From Sphaerobacter sp. (lineage in GTDB: Bacteria; Chloroflexota; Chloroflexia; Thermomicrobiales; Thermomicrobiaceae), in NCBI RefSeq assembly GCF_019683595.1, contig NZ_JADGHZ010000016.1:1-37385 (forward strand): a stretch of 37,385 nt of DNA. Reading direction: 5' to 3'. This document shows, piece after piece, positions 29,694 to 37,385 of the stretch. Each line of letters begins with the position of its first letter. Positions within the stretch are counted from its first letter, which is position 1. The notes under the pieces are model-generated. The model searched no databases, had not been told where the DNA came from, and saw only the letters and a program-made list of their open reading frames with translations. The position numbers and the translations under genes were made by a program.

Positions 29694-30221
29694 ATGAAGC
29701 CGCAAGCCGATGGGGTCGATGGGCGGGTGCGCCCCCCGTGGCAACCACCTGACCCACTGGCGGGCGCCCAGGGGGATGCGCTGGCCCGGTCCGATATGCG
29801 GAAGCGTCGCCGGCGGATCGCGACGATTCTGCTCCTGCTGCTGGAAGCGGCCGGCCTGATCGCGACCGTGGTCGTGGTCGGGCAGGGCGTGGACTGGAAG
29901 CTGGAGGAGACGCGCGAGGTCCCGTCGGCCCTAGCAACGGACTGGGTCTTCCTCGCGGGGACGGGCGTACCGGTTGCGATTCTGGCGGTGCTGGCGGCAC
30001 TGGCGCTGGCACTGCGCTTCTCGTCGGGGTGGACGTTGGCGATGCTGGCGCAGGGATTACTGTTGTTCAACTGCCTGGTGACGTACTTCGGACAACGGCT
30101 GGACGTGATCTACCCGCTGATGGTGGTTGGCATCCTGCTAGTCCTCTACCTGAACTCGTACGCCGTGCGGACGGCGCTGCAGCCGCAGCCGCCCCAGCCC
30201 GAACCTCGGGATGGAGCATGA
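29694..30221 (+). CDS. Small integral membrane protein of unknown function
   Basis: I recognise no family. The protein has 175 residues: a hydrophilic, Pro-rich N-terminus of about 40 residues ending in a basic patch (RKRRRR), then four hydrophobic segments at about 42-62, 84-107, 112-131 and 137-157, and a Pro/Gln-rich tail. The arrangement suggests a four-helix membrane protein with both ends in the cytoplasm. The ATG at 29694 has GAGG upstream; longer in-frame starts to 29526 have no ribosome site. Its stop overlaps the start of the next gene in an ATGA junction, so the two products are probably made together and may interact. Confidence 0.75.
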   Translation: MKPQADGVDGRVRPPWQPPDPLAGAQGDALARSDMRKRRRRIATILLLLLEAAGLIATVVVVGQGVDWKLEETREVPSALATDWVFLAGTGVPVAILAVLAALALALRFSSGWTLAMLAQGLLLFNCLVTYFGQRLDVIYPLMVVGILLVLYLNSYAVRTALQPQPPQPEPRDGA

Positions 30222-32059
30222 GCGCGGAGACCGATCGGGCCCTGCTCCGGCGCTTCGAGCCGATCGCTCGCTATACGCGCGGCGAGCAGTTCTACCCGCT
30301 CTACGTCGAGCCGTATGTCCGCCGCTCCGGCCTGTGGGTCCGCCACCGGAACGGCGACTCGGTGCTGCTGGTGCCGCCGGGCGAGTTGACGCTCGAACGC
30401 CTGGGAGAGCAGCGCGCCGACGGCTTCCATTCGGTCCAGTTCCTCAAGCTGACCGACCCGCTCACCGTCGCGGAGCTGGCCACCTACCGGCTTGAACGCC
30501 TCCGGGAGCGGAAAGAGCCGTCGGAGGTGTTCCACGCGGGGCAGGGGCGGCTGGCGCGCGTCGGCTACATCTCCCGCCTCGGCGCCGCGGCGTTCTCCCT
30601 CTCCCTCCTGGCGCGGGGGCGGGTGCCCGGCGACACGGCCGCGGCCGCGGCCATCGTGTACGACGCGATCCGTCGGGAGCACCCGGAGTTTCGCTACCAC
30701 GGACGGGTGGTGCGGCAGGCGGGGTGGGTCGTTCTCCAGTACTGGTTCTTCTACGTCTTCAACGACTGGCGCACCGGGTTCTTCGGCGCCAACGACCACG
30801 AAGCCGACTGGGAGATGATCAGCATCTACCTGGCCGAGTCTCCCGAAGGCGAACTGGCGCCGCAGTGGGTCGCTTACGCCAGCCACGACTACCACGGCGA
30901 CGACCTGCGCCGGCGCTGGGATGATCCGGAGTTGGAGAAGATCGGCGAGCACCCGGTGATCTACGTCGGCGCCGGGTCGCATGCGTCCTACTTCGCGCCC
31001 GGTGAATACCTCACCGAGCTTGAAGTGCCCTATCTCAACCGCGTGTCGCGCGTGGTCGAACGGGTCCAGGCGGTCTGGTACGAACGCCTCCGGCAGTATC
31101 GGGCGAACACCGACTCGGACGACACGCGGCACGGTGTGAACCTGCGCATCCCGTTCGTCGACTACGCCCGCGGGGATGGGCTGACGATCGGCCCGGGCCA
31201 GAACGCCGAGTGGGGCGAACCGGTGCTGATCGAGCCGCCGCCCTCCTGGGTGTCCGGCTACCGTGGGCTGTGGGGCTACCACGCGCGCGACCCCTTCGCC
31301 GGTGAGGATGCCCCGGCCGGACCGATGTACAACCGCGATGGGACTACGCGCCGCTCCTGGTATGACCCCGTCGGCTGGGCGGGGCTCGACAAGGTTCCGA
31401 CGCCGCGCGATCTGCTCCCGACCATCCAGGGACGCATCGCCTCGATACGCGATCGCCAGCGGGAAGCCGCGGAGGCCATCGAGGCCAAGCAGCGCGAGTT
31501 GCAGGGGATCGGCGTGGAGATCGCCGCGATGGTGGGCCAGCCGCACCTCCGCGTTGCCTACGAATCGGCCAGCCGGCGCCTCGCGTCCCTTTCCGACGAG
31601 GTTTCCCGCCTTCGCGCGCAGGTGGCCGAGGACGAGGCGCTCCTGGAGGCCCTCACCAACCATGCGCGGGAGCTGGAGGCGGGGATGCCTACCGACCCGC
31701 GAGCGCACATCCGCCGGGCTGCTCGCCCCGTGTCGGAGCGACAGCTCCGAGCGGCGCGCCTGGCAGAAATCTGGGCGGCCATCAGCATCGGGGTTCTGCT
31801 CGTCAGCGTCGTCGCGCTGGCCTATTTCGAGCGACAGTACCTCTTCATCGGGCTCGTCTACGCGGTCGCGCTCTTCGCCCTCATTGAGGCAGCCTTCCGC
31901 GGCCAGATCGGCCGGCTCATCACCGGGCTGACGGTCGTCCTGGCGCTCGTGTCGGCCGGCGTGCTCGTCTTCGAATTTTTCTGGCAGATCTCTCTCGGCA
32001 TCGTCGTGCTGATCGGCCTCTACATCCTCATCATCAACCTGCGCGAGCTGCGGCGGTAG
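30218..32059 (+). CDS. Membrane protein with a Vps62-like domain, coiled coil and C-terminal helices
   Basis: A 613-residue protein. The N-terminal 380 or so residues include NDHEADWEMISIYL (about 192-205) and HPVIYVGAGSHASYF (about 245-259), the two blocks typical of the Vps62-like family, found in fungi, plants and scattered bacteria and without an assigned biochemical role. Next comes a coiled coil (about 402-430 and 450-489, with Arg/Glu/Gln heptads), then four or five membrane helices (about 514-608) ending LYILIINLRELRR. So a large soluble domain is tethered to the membrane by its C-terminus. Translation is coupled to the upstream membrane gene through ATGA. The Vps62 assignment is from motif memory and is moderately sure; the function is unknown. 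Confidence 0.75.
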   Translation: MSAETDRALLRRFEPIARYTRGEQFYPLYVEPYVRRSGLWVRHRNGDSVLLVPPGELTLERLGEQRADGFHSVQFLKLTDPLTVAELATYRLERLRERKEPSEVFHAGQGRLARVGYISRLGAAAFSLSLLARGRVPGDTAAAAAIVYDAIRREHPEFRYHGRVVRQAGWVVLQYWFFYVFNDWRTGFFGANDHEADWEMISIYLAESPEGELAPQWVAYASHDYHGDDLRRRWDDPELEKIGEHPVIYVGAGSHASYFAPGEYLTELEVPYLNRVSRVVERVQAVWYERLRQYRANTDSDDTRHGVNLRIPFVDYARGDGLTIGPGQNAEWGEPVLIEPPPSWVSGYRGLWGYHARDPFAGEDAPAGPMYNRDGTTRRSWYDPVGWAGLDKVPTPRDLLPTIQGRIASIRDRQREAAEAIEAKQRELQGIGVEIAAMVGQPHLRVAYESASRRLASLSDEVSRLRAQVAEDEALLEALTNHARELEAGMPTDPRAHIRRAARPVSERQLRAARLAEIWAAISIGVLLVSVVALAYFERQYLFIGLVYAVALFALIEAAFRGQIGRLITGLTVVLALVSAGVLVFEFFWQISLGIVVLIGLYILIINLRELRR

Positions 32060-32429: not shown

Positions 32430-33470
32430 TTATCGGGACAGGTACCGCTCCGGGTCGGCGGCGAACTGGCGGCGGCACGAGGGGCAGCAGAAGTAGTAGC
32501 GCGTGCCCTGGTAGTCGTAGGTATGGCGGGCAGTCGTGATCTCGACCGCCATGCCGCAGACGGGGTCGATCGCCTGGGTCGCCACGGGATCCGCCTCGAC
32601 CACCGGCATTGCGACCGTCGGCGTCGCGTCCTTCGGCGCCAATTCGGCGCGTTTGGCGATGATCTCGGCCAGGATGCTGACCGCGATCTCCTCCGGGGCG
32701 GTGGCGGCGATGTCGAAGCCGGCCGGCGCCTTGACTCGCGCGAGCAGGTCATCGGGGATGCCGCTGGCGCGCAGGGTGTCACGCATGGTTTCGAAGCGGC
32801 GGCTGCTCGCGACCAGCGCGACGAAACCGACACCCGCCCGCAGCGCCTGCTCGACCGCGTCCTCGTCGTAGACCCCCATCGTCGCCACGACCGCGACGGC
32901 AGGCCCGCCCGCGGCCGCTGCACCGATGTCGAGGTCGTCGAGGACGACATCCGCCTCAGAAGGAGCGCTCTCGGTCGCGCCGGGCCGGGAAGCGATCACG
33001 CGGTAGCCCATGACGTGGCCCAGGCGCACCAGCGCGTCGGCGACCGGACTCTCGCCGAAGACGATCAGCCGCAGCGGGGGCAGGAACGGTTCCAAGAACA
33101 CCTCCAGCGCGCCGCCGCTGTGGCACGTGAGCGGCGCGGTCACAACATCCGGCCGGTCGGCCGGACCGCGGCCGTCCGGGCTGAGGCGGAGGGTCCGCGG
33201 CCGTCCTTCGGCCAGGGCTTCCAGTGCCTGGCGCACGACCGTCGGCTGCGCGCAGCTCCCACCGACCCAGCCGAAGAGCGCACCGTCCGGCGTCACGATA
33301 CCCTTGGCGCCCGGCCGCGCCGAAGTGGGACGCTGGCTCCAGACAACGGTCGCCAGCACGAAGGGCTCGCCCGCCTGCTTGAGCGCTGCCGCGCGGGCGA
33401 AGATGTCCTCACTGACCCTCCGCAGCGCAGGTTGGGTCGTGGTACCGGACCGCTCGCCGTGTTCCGTCAT
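32430..33470 (-). CDS. XdhC/CoxI family molybdoenzyme maturation factor with C-terminal YHS domain
   Basis: A 346-residue protein. The N-terminal XdhC_CoxI domain (about 20-130) shows PFVLATVVWSQRPTSARPGA and the conserved FGWVGGSCAQP. A Rossmann-type XdhC C-domain follows (about 130-270; LRLIVFGESPVADALVRLG, VVATMGVYDEDAV). Residues 302-346 form a YHS domain: DPVCGM with C305, then YYFCCPSC with C328, C329 and C332. XdhC proteins help sulfurate and insert the molybdenum cofactor in xanthine-oxidase-family enzymes; here the client is most likely the CO dehydrogenase directly upstream. The YHS domain is a small metal-binding module, unusual on XdhC. The gene lies 68 bases after coxL. The ribosome site is weak (AAGG at 11 bases). 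Confidence 0.88.
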   Translation of the reverse strand: MTEHGERSGTTTQPALRRVSEDIFARAAALKQAGEPFVLATVVWSQRPTSARPGAKGIVTPDGALFGWVGGSCAQPTVVRQALEALAEGRPRTLRLSPDGRGPADRPDVVTAPLTCHSGGALEVFLEPFLPPLRLIVFGESPVADALVRLGHVMGYRVIASRPGATESAPSEADVVLDDLDIGAAAAGGPAVAVVATMGVYDEDAVEQALRAGVGFVALVASSRRFETMRDTLRASGIPDDLLARVKAPAGFDIAATAPEEIAVSILAEIIAKRAELAPKDATPTVAMPVVEADPVATQAIDPVCGMAVEITTARHTYDYQGTRYYFCCPSCRRQFAADPERYLSR

Positions 33471-33538: not shown

Positions 33539-35893
33539 CTACTCGGCGACACCCTTTTCCTGGAGGATCTGATAGACCTTCCAGGGCGTGATCGGGATGT
33601 CGATGTGGCGGACGCCGAGGTGGCTGAGCGCGTCCACGACGGCATTCACGATCGCCGGGGGCGCACCGACCGTTGGGCTCTCGCCCACGCCCTTGGCCCC
33701 GATCGGGTGATGGGGCGACGGCGTCACGGTCTTCTCGGTCCGCCAGTTCGGCGTCTCCATGGCCGTCGGAACCAGGTAGTCCATGAACGTGCCGGTGAGC
33801 ATCGTGCCGTTTTCGTCGTACACGATCTCCTCAAAGAGCGCCGGCGCCAGCCCCATCGTCAGCCCGCCGTGGATCTGCCCCTCCACGATCATCGGGTTGA
33901 TGATCGTGCCGCAGTCGTCCAGCGCCAGGAACTCACGCACGGTCGGCTGACCGGTGCCGCGGTCGATGTCGACCACGCAGACATAGGCGCCGAACGGGAA
34001 GGTCAGGTTGGGCGGGTCATAGTAGGTGACCGCCTCCAGACCGCCTTCCAGCCCCTGCGGGAAGTTCGTGTAGGCGGCGAAGGCGATCTCGCTCATCGTC
34101 TTGGCACGCTCCGGCGAGCCCTTGACGCGGAAGGCATAGTCGCGCCACTCCAGATCGTCCGGGTCGACCTCCAGCAGGTGGGCGGCGATCAGCCGCGCCT
34201 TCTCCCGGATCTTCCGCGCCGCCACGGCCGTCGCCGCGCCGGCGGTCGGCGTGCTCCGGCTGGCGTAGGTGCCCAGCCCGTAGGGGGCGGTGTCGGTGTC
34301 GCCGTGCTCAACGACGATGTTCTCAACCGGCAGCCCCAGCTCCTCCGCCACGATCTGGGCGAAGGTCGTCTCGTGTCCCTGCCCCTGGGTCTGGACACCG
34401 ATGCGGACGAGCGCGGAACCGGTCGGGTGGACCCGGATCTCGGCGCTGTCGAACATCTTGATCCCGAGGATGTCGAAGGTATGCGACGGGCCGGCGCCGA
34501 CGATCTCGGTGAAGGTCGAGATGCCGATCCCCATCAACTCACCGCGCGCTCGCTTCTCCGCCTGCTCGCGCCGCAGCTCCTGGTAGCCGATGGCATCGAG
34601 CGCCTTCTGCAGCGCCGCCGGGTAGTTGCCGCTGTCGTACTCCCAGCCGGTCGGCGACTTGTAGGGGAACTGCTCCGGCTGGATGAAGTTCTTGAAGCGG
34701 ATCTCCGCCGGGTCCATGTTCAGCTCATCGGCCAGGACATCGACCATGCGCTCGATCATGTGGACCGCTTCCGTCACCCGGAACGAGCAGCGATAGGCGA
34801 TCCCGCCCGGCGCCTTGTTGGTATAGACGCCGTCGACGTTGAAGTGGGCCGCCTCCAGGGTGTACGACCCGGTACCGATGCTGAAGAGCCCGGCTGGGAA
34901 CTTCGACGGGTTGGCCGCCGCATCGAACGCGCCGTGGTCGGCCACGGTGTGCACCCGCAGCGCGCGCATCTTCCCATCCCGCGTCGCCGCGATCTCGGCG
35001 TGGATGTGGTAGTCGCGCGCGAACGAGTCGGCTTGCAGATTCTCGGAACGGTCCTCGATCCACTTGACCGGCCGCCCGGTCTGGAGCGAGGCCACGATCG
35101 CCAGCACGTAGCCGGGGTAGACCGGCACCTTGCCGCCGAACCCGCCGCCGATGTCGGGTGAGATGACCCGGATCTTGGTCTCCGGGATGCCCGAGACGAG
35201 CGAGAAGACGGTGCGGTGGGCGTGCGGCGCCTGGCTCGTCATCCAGACGGTCAGCTTGCCCGATACCTTGTCGAACGACGCCACACAGCCGCAGGTCTCG
35301 ATCGAGGAGACATGGATCCGCGGGATGTACATCTTCTGCGAGACGACGACCTCGGCTTCCTCGAAGATCCGGTCCGTCGCCTCCTTGTCGCCCGCCTGCC
35401 AGTTCCAGATGTGGTTGGTCTTCTCCTCCCGGTCGGGCCGAACCAGCGGCGCGTCCGGCTCCAGCGCGCGGAACGGGTCGAGGACCGGCTCCAGCGCCTC
35501 GTACTCCACGTCGATCGCCAGCACGGCGTCTGCCGCCGTGTAGCGGTCCTCCGCGATGACGGCCGCGACCTCCTGCGCGTAGTAGACGACCCGGTCAGTG
35601 GGCAGCACCATCTGCCGGTCGCTCATGAGCGTCGGCATCCAGGCCAGCCCGGCCGCCTCCAGATCCTTGCCGGTGATGACCGCGACGACGCCCGGCATGG
35701 CGACTGCCTTCGCGCTGTCGAGCTTGGTGATGCGCGCATGGGCGTAGGGACTCCGCAGGATGTCGAGGTAGAGCATGCCCGGGAGTTTGATGTCGTCGAC
35801 GTACGTCCCTTTCCCGCGGATGAAGCGCGGGTCCTCCTTGCGCTTGACCGGGTGACCGAGTCCACCGATTGCTGCACGCTCCGTGGCAGTCAT
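33539..35893 (-). CDS. coxL: Aerobic carbon monoxide dehydrogenase large subunit, form I
   Basis: A 784-residue molybdenum subunit that oxidises CO to CO2 at a Mo-Cu site. The form I signature AYRCSFR is present (366-372), with C369 as the copper-binding cysteine. The catalytic Glu is E738 in GAKGVGESPTVG. Other family blocks are SPDIGGGFGGKVPVYPGY, TQGQGHETTFAQI and DDCGTIINPMIVEGQIHGG. The motif separates it from form II (AYRGAGR) and from xanthine dehydrogenases. The length fits. The ATG at 35893 has GGGAGGA upstream and starts 3 bases after the coxS stop, so the two are translationally linked. The order M-S-L is that of known cox operons. Confidence 0.97.
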   Translation of the reverse strand: MTATERAAIGGLGHPVKRKEDPRFIRGKGTYVDDIKLPGMLYLDILRSPYAHARITKLDSAKAVAMPGVVAVITGKDLEAAGLAWMPTLMSDRQMVLPTDRVVYYAQEVAAVIAEDRYTAADAVLAIDVEYEALEPVLDPFRALEPDAPLVRPDREEKTNHIWNWQAGDKEATDRIFEEAEVVVSQKMYIPRIHVSSIETCGCVASFDKVSGKLTVWMTSQAPHAHRTVFSLVSGIPETKIRVISPDIGGGFGGKVPVYPGYVLAIVASLQTGRPVKWIEDRSENLQADSFARDYHIHAEIAATRDGKMRALRVHTVADHGAFDAAANPSKFPAGLFSIGTGSYTLEAAHFNVDGVYTNKAPGGIAYRCSFRVTEAVHMIERMVDVLADELNMDPAEIRFKNFIQPEQFPYKSPTGWEYDSGNYPAALQKALDAIGYQELRREQAEKRARGELMGIGISTFTEIVGAGPSHTFDILGIKMFDSAEIRVHPTGSALVRIGVQTQGQGHETTFAQIVAEELGLPVENIVVEHGDTDTAPYGLGTYASRSTPTAGAATAVAARKIREKARLIAAHLLEVDPDDLEWRDYAFRVKGSPERAKTMSEIAFAAYTNFPQGLEGGLEAVTYYDPPNLTFPFGAYVCVVDIDRGTGQPTVREFLALDDCGTIINPMIVEGQIHGGLTMGLAPALFEEIVYDENGTMLTGTFMDYLVPTAMETPNWRTEKTVTPSPHHPIGAKGVGESPTVGAPPAIVNAVVDALSHLGVRHIDIPITPWKVYQILQEKGVAE

Positions 35894-35896
35894 CGG

Positions 35897-36433
35897 CTAG
35901 TCCTCCCTTCCACCAGCCGGCACGCCGGACGGCGCCGCGGCTTCCTTCGCCTGCTGCATCTTCCTGGCCGCGTACTGGATCGACTTGACGATGTTCACGT
36001 AGCCGGTACACCGGCAGAGGTTGCCGGAGATCGCCTGCCGAATCTCTGCTTCGGTCGGATTCGGGTTGCGCTCGAGCAGGGCAACCGCGGTCATCATCAT
36101 GCCCGGGGTGCAGAAGCCACACTGGAGCCCGTGCTCCTGCCAGAAGCCCTCCTGCACCGGGTGGAGTTCGCCGTTCTGCTCCAGACCTTCGACGGTACGG
36201 ATCTCGCCGCCGTCGGCCTGCACCGCGAAGACGGTGCACGACTTGACCGGCACGCCGTTGAGGTGGACGGTGCAGGCACCGCAACTGGTCGTGTCGCAGC
36301 CGATGTGGGTGCCCGTCAGCCCGAGCGTCTCGCGGATGAAATGGACCAGCAACAGGCGCGGCTCGACCTCGGCCTGCCGCACCTCGCCGTTGACCGTGAC
36401 CGTGATCGGAACGGTGCGCGTCCTGGTGCTCAT
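35897..36433 (-). CDS. coxS: Carbon monoxide dehydrogenase small (iron-sulfur) subunit
   Basis: A 178-residue protein with two [2Fe-2S] clusters that carry electrons from the Mo site to the FAD subunit. The plant-ferredoxin-type cluster uses C46, C51, C54 ([10 protein letters not shown]) and C66. The second uses C105 and C108 (CGFC), and C140 and C142 (CRC). All eight ligands are present. A C-terminal extension of about 20 residues ([17 protein letters not shown]) is not part of the fold. The ATG at 36433 has GGAGAGGTG upstream, and the gene starts 18 bases after the coxM stop. Confidence 0.97.
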
Positions 36434-36451: not shown

Positions 36452-37330
36452 CTACGCCGCGGCCGCGCCCGCGCGCTCCAGGGCACGCCGCAGCGCGCGA
36501 GCCGTCACCGTGCGCGTCACGGCCCGCTTGTAGTCTTCCGGCCCACGCAGGTCACTCGATGGATCGCACTCTTCACCCGCCAGGCGCGCCGCCTCGCGGA
36601 TCGCCTCCTCGGTCGGCGCCTTGCCCAGCAGCGCCGCCTCGGCCTGTTTCGCCCGCATCGGCATGTAGTTCACGTTCGTCAGGCCGATCCGGACCGACGC
36701 CACCTGGCCAGCCTCGTCGAGCGTGAGCTGCACCGCAGCGCCCGCGATCGCGTAGTCGCCGACCTTGCGCTCAAATTTGACATAAGCCCCACCCGAGCGC
36801 GGGCCGGGAGCCGGGATGCGGATGGCGGTGAGGACCTCATCCGCCGCGAGGGCTGTGGTGAACGTGTCGACAAAGAAGTCGTCGATGGGAATGGTGCGCT
36901 CGCCGCTAGGGCCGGTCGCGACGACCTCGGCGCCGAGAGCCAGCATGGTCGCGGGGTGGTCATTCGCCGGGTCAGCGTGCGCCAGGTTTCCCCCGACGGT
37001 GGCCAGGTTGCGCACGAGCGGGTCGGCGATCACGACCGCCGTGTCGAGGATGATCGGGAACTCTGTGCGGACGGCCTCGTCGCCCTCGAGCGCGGCCTCA
37101 CGGGTGAGGGCACCGAGCACCAGGTGGCCGTTCTCGCGCCGGATCCCCCCGAGGCCCGGGATTCGATTCAGGTCGACGATCACCGCCGGCTCGGCCAACC
37201 GGAACTTCATCAGCGGGATCAGGCTCTGCCCGCCAGCCAGCAGCTTGGCGTCGAGACCGTGCTCAGAGAGTAGGGCGACGGCTTCCGAGAGCGAAGCCGG
37301 AGCATGGTACTCGAAAGGTCCAGGAATCAT
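36452..37330 (-). CDS. coxM: Carbon monoxide dehydrogenase medium (FAD) subunit
   Basis: A 292-residue flavoprotein that receives electrons from the iron-sulfur subunit and passes them to the respiratory chain. The two FAD-binding motifs are AGGQSLIPLMK (32-42) and TVGGNLAHADPAND (111-124). The C-terminal CO-dehydrogenase flavoprotein domain follows to about residue 285, with VGDYAIAGAAVQL and GLTNVNYMPMRA. The ATG at 37330 has AGAGGAG at about 10 bases. It is the first cox gene seen; only 55 bases lie upstream in the window, so the promoter and any preceding gene cannot be judged. Confidence 0.97.
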   Translation of the reverse strand: MIPGPFEYHAPASLSEAVALLSEHGLDAKLLAGGQSLIPLMKFRLAEPAVIVDLNRIPGLGGIRRENGHLVLGALTREAALEGDEAVRTEFPIILDTAVVIADPLVRNLATVGGNLAHADPANDHPATMLALGAEVVATGPSGERTIPIDDFFVDTFTTALAADEVLTAIRIPAPGPRSGGAYVKFERKVGDYAIAGAAVQLTLDEAGQVASVRIGLTNVNYMPMRAKQAEAALLGKAPTEEAIREAARLAGEECDPSSDLRGPEDYKRAVTRTVTARALRRALERAGAAAA

Positions 37331-37385
37331 GCGAAGCCGACTCCTCTCGCCGGTCGGCGCCCAAGACCGCCTGACCGATTTTTCA

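Follow-up and report, generated by a model that had tools for sequence, protein, structure and literature searches.

The window, that is, the whole stretch of 37,385 nucleotides of Sphaerobacter DNA considered here, carries the genes of an aerobic CO dehydrogenase in the order coxM-S-L-F. All four are on the minus strand, separated by 18 nt (M-S), 3 nt (S-L) and 68 nt (L-F). The product of coxL scores 1288.6 bits against TIGR02416, the equivalog model for aerobic CO dehydrogenase (cut-off 991), and contains AYRCSFR, the motif of form I enzymes, whose cysteine binds the active-site copper. The coxF-like gene downstream of form I coxL is a single reading frame with an ATG start, and its 346-aa product is an XdhC protein with a C-terminal YHS domain, here called the tail. 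The operon and the parts of the coxF-like gene are organized as follows.

36452..37330, minus strand: coxM, FAD subunit, the operon's first readable gene, on a contig that ends at 37385 (Pfam)
35897..36433, minus strand: coxS, [2Fe-2S] subunit (Pfam)
33539..35893, minus strand: coxL, form I (AYRCSFR), Mo/Cu subunit (TIGR02416)
32430..33470, minus strand: coxF-like gene, XdhC_CoxI + XdhC_C + YHS (ORF listing, Pfam, tree and motif)
33186..33377, minus strand: XdhC_CoxI domain, residues 32-95, containing the invariant C73 (Pfam, alignment)
33111..33125, minus strand: C116-x-S-x-G motif, CHSGG, residues 116-120 (alignment, tree)
32661..33068, minus strand: XdhC_C Rossmann domain, residues 135-270 (Pfam; AlphaFold2 pLDDT >90 over most of it)
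32577..32642, minus strand: variable linker of low confidence, residues 277-298 (pLDDT <50 at 285-295)
32436..32570, minus strand: YHS domain, residues 301-345, predicted ligands D302, C305, C328 and C332 (Pfam, conservation, fold confidence)

The three domains all score above the curated Pfam cut-offs: XdhC_CoxI with 76.5 bits (E 1.5e-21), XdhC_C with 91.3 bits (E 8.9e-26), and YHS (PF04945) with 58.8 bits (cut-off 30.3, E 5.4e-16). The body of the protein matches the fold of the XdhC structures 2we8 (E 2.2e-19) and 3on5. The same three-domain architecture is seen again in more than 100 other genomes, which excludes a frameshift or an error of assembly as the source of the fusion. A YHS domain at the C-terminus of an XdhC protein was the starting point of the original prediction; the Pfam match bears this observation out, and the tail keeps the metal-ligand pattern. 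A convergent ORF of 676 aa (window 30029-32059, plus strand), without a Pfam or NCBIfam match, separates coxF from acnA in Sphaerobacter; in Thermomicrobium roseum acnA directly follows coxF.

The tail is the sole YHS match in the whole Sphaerobacter genome. The other XdhC matches of this genome lie on contig C185, together with a CoxL-like protein that, at 802 bits, stays under the cut-off for form I. This form II-like cluster has no YHS and serves as an internal control. It holds coxD, a CoxI pair and the only coxE match of the genome (L165). The form I operon has no adjoining coxD or coxE, and those of the C185 cluster may serve both CO dehydrogenase-type enzymes.

The ligand set of YHS domains, D/C-x2-C followed by C-x3-C, is present in the Sphaerobacter tail as D302, C305, C328 and C332. 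In an alignment of 92 proteins these residues are nearly invariant: D302 is kept in 89, C305 in 91, C328 in 91, and C332 in all 92. Apart from N302 in two betaproteobacteria, the only departure is a degenerate set in Deinococcus. In the latter (Deinococcus sp. AJ005 p380k, L072:9989-11107) positions 302, 305, 328 and 332 are S, D, T and C, and a CxxC is kept (TCANC). C329, the second cysteine of the FCC in the window, was considered as the fourth ligand and rejected, being a cysteine in only 47 of the 92 proteins. One actinobacterial form I cluster encodes a coxF-like protein with two tandem YHS domains (L203:6804-7904). Selenocysteine in the tail was likewise rejected: the in-frame TGA of one copy (G823, L230) is a stop codon after an intact YHS domain. 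Another copy (G677, L233) appears to be frame-shifted.

The AlphaFold2 model, based on 78 homologues, has a mean pLDDT of 90, with about 90-95 in the tail and less than 50 at residues 285-295, and among homologues 7 to 64 residues link the XdhC core to the tail. The tail is thus predicted to be a confidently folded domain on a flexible or disordered linker. Similar YHS domains were found in heavy-metal P1B ATPases and in a cupredoxin-like protein. A sequence search of solved structures gave only weak matches to phenol hydroxylase (E 0.06). The YHS domain of Mycobacterium phlei adenylyl cyclase makes that enzyme Cu2+-dependent, and an aspartate with three cysteines has been proposed as its copper site (PMC4626032); the conserved ligands of the CoxF tails are of just this composition.

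By neighbourhood, motif and tree, the tailed Sphaerobacter protein is assigned to CoxF rather than CoxI. Its gene neighbours are form I coxMSL, and an alignment with both CoxF and CoxI of Oligotropha carboxidovorans places it with CoxF, as an ortholog. The C-x-S-x-G motif at residue 116 (CHSGG) is common to form I-linked CoxF, with few exceptions, whereas CoxI-type proteins have CGG or C-GS at this place. The protein thus falls outside the CoxI class, which acts in sulfuration of the Mo cofactor. In a tree of 135 proteins, built by a quick method, with weakly supported deeper branches and without the protein of genome G659, the 132 form I-linked proteins separate from the CoxI outgroup rows with a support of 100. 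The tailed gene of Paraburkholderia takes the place of coxF, after coxD and coxE (M-S-L-G-D-E-F). The earlier label of an XdhC/CoxI-type factor is therefore right as to the family domains and wrong as to the type. Phage relatives were considered and rejected; only short local matches were obtained.

The role of CoxF has been defined genetically in O. carboxidovorans. A coxF mutant of this organism makes a folded CO dehydrogenase that contains Mo (1.85) and sulfane sulfur (1.40 vs 1.53), but its copper content is 0.043 as against 1.47 in the wild type (PMC4240915). Sulfuration was assigned to CoxD (PMC4240915). As the mutant enzyme keeps Mo and sulfur with nearly no copper, CoxF must act in the copper step. 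The requirement of CoxF for copper in CO dehydrogenase is established for the O. carboxidovorans homologue and would probably hold for Sphaerobacter. The original prediction had the tail join sulfuration with copper delivery; this part is not supported, because the mutant enzyme lacks copper but keeps its sulfur, which puts the tail on a copper-step protein and not on a sulfuration factor. Pelzmann et al. proposed CoxF as a copper carrier by way of a motif in its body, MCPSHGTM (PMC4240915), and this motif coincides with the C-x-S-x-G site.

The association of the tail with form I enzymes was surveyed in 400 Chloroflexota genomes, using a profile made from five fusions alongside TIGR02416. All 86 matches better than 1e-50 extend into YHS, and all weaker ones among the matches listed end before it. 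The tailed gene is present in 85 genomes, form I coxL in 86, and both in 83 (Fisher p ~1e-79, the genomes not being independent of each other). Of the 86 tailed genes, 79 follow coxL on its strand at a distance of 27-2579 nt (median 118); of the remaining seven, three proved linked to coxL on reading the DNA and four are at contig ends. In the three genomes with coxL only, the contig ends where the tailed gene would be expected. One genome with a coxL-linked copy has a second YHS-tailed XdhC (DPICDM) at a contig end, adjoining coxE and coxI-like genes (L106, G199:C78). The idea that the tail replaces CoxE is unsupported: only 4 of the 85 tailed genomes have no CoxE match, and these are drafts with possible gaps.

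The same association is found beyond Chloroflexota. The tail is present in 30 of the 31 coxF genes that could be read in Actinomycetota. All six PLSDB plasmid records with a full-length tailed match, from Thermomicrobium, Deinococcus, Natronorubrum, Paraburkholderia and Caballeronia (two records), also hold form I coxL. Tailed coxF thus occurs in Betaproteobacteria, Deinococcus and one haloarchaeon, and two more phyla have it, namely those of L018 (labelled Acidobacteria) and L033 (labelled Deltaproteobacteria). The 353 genomes of these two phyla gave nine tailed matches among well over 200 XdhC matches, seven of them in form I clusters and two on contigs without coxL. In the L033 phylum (L234-L239) the gene order is mostly MobA-F-G-M-S-L, with coxF upstream of the structural genes, and in L237 coxD and coxE lie between coxF and coxG.

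Among the genes examined in Chloroflexota, Actinomycetota, plasmids and the two further phyla, the tail is exclusive to form I coxL and no tailed gene stands beside another kind of enzyme; since form I-linked fusions served as seeds for the profiles, a distant XdhC-YHS protein of another kind could escape them, and many of the genomes are drafts. Occurrence of the fusion mainly with copper-free xanthine dehydrogenases, a pattern that would have spoken against a copper role, was not found: every tailed gene is beside form I coxL, at a contig end, or on a contig without coxL.

Some CoxF proteins have no tail, namely eight from Alphaproteobacteria (including that of O. carboxidovorans), that of Nonomuraea, L176, and that of genome G659 in the L018 phylum. 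L176 is the single untailed actinobacterial CoxF in the sample, and its close relatives L177 and L178 are tailed. In the tree, the alphaproteobacterial CoxF proteins are sister to tailed betaproteobacterial ones, inside the tailed proteins (support 96-97), and the trait requires three changes. Because the untailed group is nested beside tailed relatives, loss is the simpler reading of its absence in Alphaproteobacteria. On this reading the YHS tail has been lost several times. Transfer of the domain to a separate gene was considered and rejected: no YHS was found within 9 kb of the alphaproteobacterial cox clusters, and none elsewhere in the untailed actinobacterium G556, by an insensitive search, which overlooked the weak tail in the related G502 as well. 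O. carboxidovorans, whose CoxF is the best studied, manages with an untailed protein, and other CoxF proteins are untailed too; the tail is therefore not required for copper insertion as such. It would be an aid, perhaps at low copper, and not an absolute need.

Based on these observations we think it rather probable that CoxF with a YHS tail is the copper-step factor of form I CO dehydrogenase, the tail most likely holding copper and handing it over. CoxF would put copper into the sulfurated Mo site of the form I (Mo/Cu) enzyme. The flexibly tethered tail would most likely bind one copper ion through the predicted ligands and present it either to the C116-x-S-x-G site in the body of CoxF or directly to CoxL; CoxF would thereby carry its own copper-holding module near the point of use. 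Copper as the metal of the tail, and its hand-over, are what we infer here. The tail would add to CoxF a second and better-defined candidate copper site besides the body motif.

The tethered domain could alternatively serve for positioning only, as a structural zinc module of treble-clef-like form that docks CoxF to CoxL, CoxE or CoxG and carries no copper. YHS/TRASH-type sites do take other metals, such as Cd in ribosomal L24e (PMC4626032), the zinc finger family zf-FCS weakly matches the tandem tails of L203, and a linker of variable length, like the tolerable loss of the domain in some lineages, is compatible with docking. We regard docking as unlikely, however, because nearly all tails have Asp or Asn as first ligand, whereas L24e uses four Cys, because heavy-metal ATPases are among the closest YHS relatives found, and because the tail keeps to copper enzymes among the genes examined.

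It is quite improbable that the tail is a copper sensor, in which copper would switch the CoxF body on or gate release of the Mo cofactor or apo-enzyme. The only biochemically tested fused YHS that we found, in M. phlei adenylyl cyclase, does act as an on-switch, specific for Cu2+, of the domain to which it is fused (PMC4626032), but CoxF has no known catalytic activity to gate, the linker is long and variable, and CoxF acts in copper insertion itself (PMC4240915), which speaks more simply for a store or carrier. Recent loss, both among close relatives (L176) and in Alphaproteobacteria, together with the degenerate ligands in Deinococcus, would suit a functionless remnant retained by inertia. 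Such a remnant is very hard to reconcile with ligands that hardly change from one divergent phylum to another although the linker and position 329 are free to vary, or with the doubling of the domain in L203, and we give it little credence.

Taking the tail as a holder and donor of copper, one may tentatively go further. CoxF may ancestrally have had a copper-holding domain that was lost in the lineage of the model organism, and delivery may proceed by this built-in YHS metallochaperone and not by a phytate/phytase route, which had been proposed from tail-less CoxF.

Atmospheric CO has a major sink in aerobic bacteria that possess Mo/Cu CO dehydrogenases. The enzyme is cytoplasmic and receives a single Cu(I) ion, and the only copper-delivery model found rests on a CoxF without a YHS domain. 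In most sampled CoxF proteins outside Alphaproteobacteria there is a domain with conserved metal ligands, and no such domain turned up next to a copper-free relative of the enzyme. The tail is thus a small, testable candidate copper carrier for which nature provides tail-less controls, and as a sequence marker it tells form I CoxF apart from the other XdhC proteins. In the open, non-subscription literature no mention of XdhC or coxF together with YHS was found, and a search for YHS with CO dehydrogenase surfaced selenoprotein reviews, the examined one of which was unrelated. The XdhC-YHS architecture may be listed in domain databases.

Among known systems, the XdhC fold is common to CoxF, Rhodobacter capsulatus XdhC, CoxI, and 2we8 (the M. 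smegmatis homologue of Rv0376c). No YHS was matched in the latter three, the CoxI type is set apart by its CGG or C-GS, and XdhC/CoxI types, unlike CoxF, serve sulfuration or insertion of the Mo cofactor; XdhC, for example, is a Mo cofactor chaperone and a sulfuration platform (PMC2997495). The YHS half resembles that of M. phlei adenylyl cyclase, which is likewise a C-terminal fusion with D and three Cys in a protein that responds to Cu2+; there, however, the partner is a cyclase and the function is sensing, not metal delivery (PMC4626032). CoxF of O. carboxidovorans OM5 (Afipia) from pHCG3 (WP_013913733.1) has the same XdhC_CoxI and XdhC_C domains, form I operon, C-x-S-x-G motif and clade as the Sphaerobacter protein, but it is 280 aa long and ends after the Rossmann domain, without YHS, and its gene follows coxD and coxE, whereas Sphaerobacter coxF comes directly after coxL. 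Proteins of T. roseum (WP_143714800.1) and Paraburkholderia aromaticivorans pBN2 (WP_035477365.1) have the same three domains in form I cox clusters, although the first ligand of betaproteobacterial tails is N and not D as in Sphaerobacter; both proteins are annotated merely as XdhC family.
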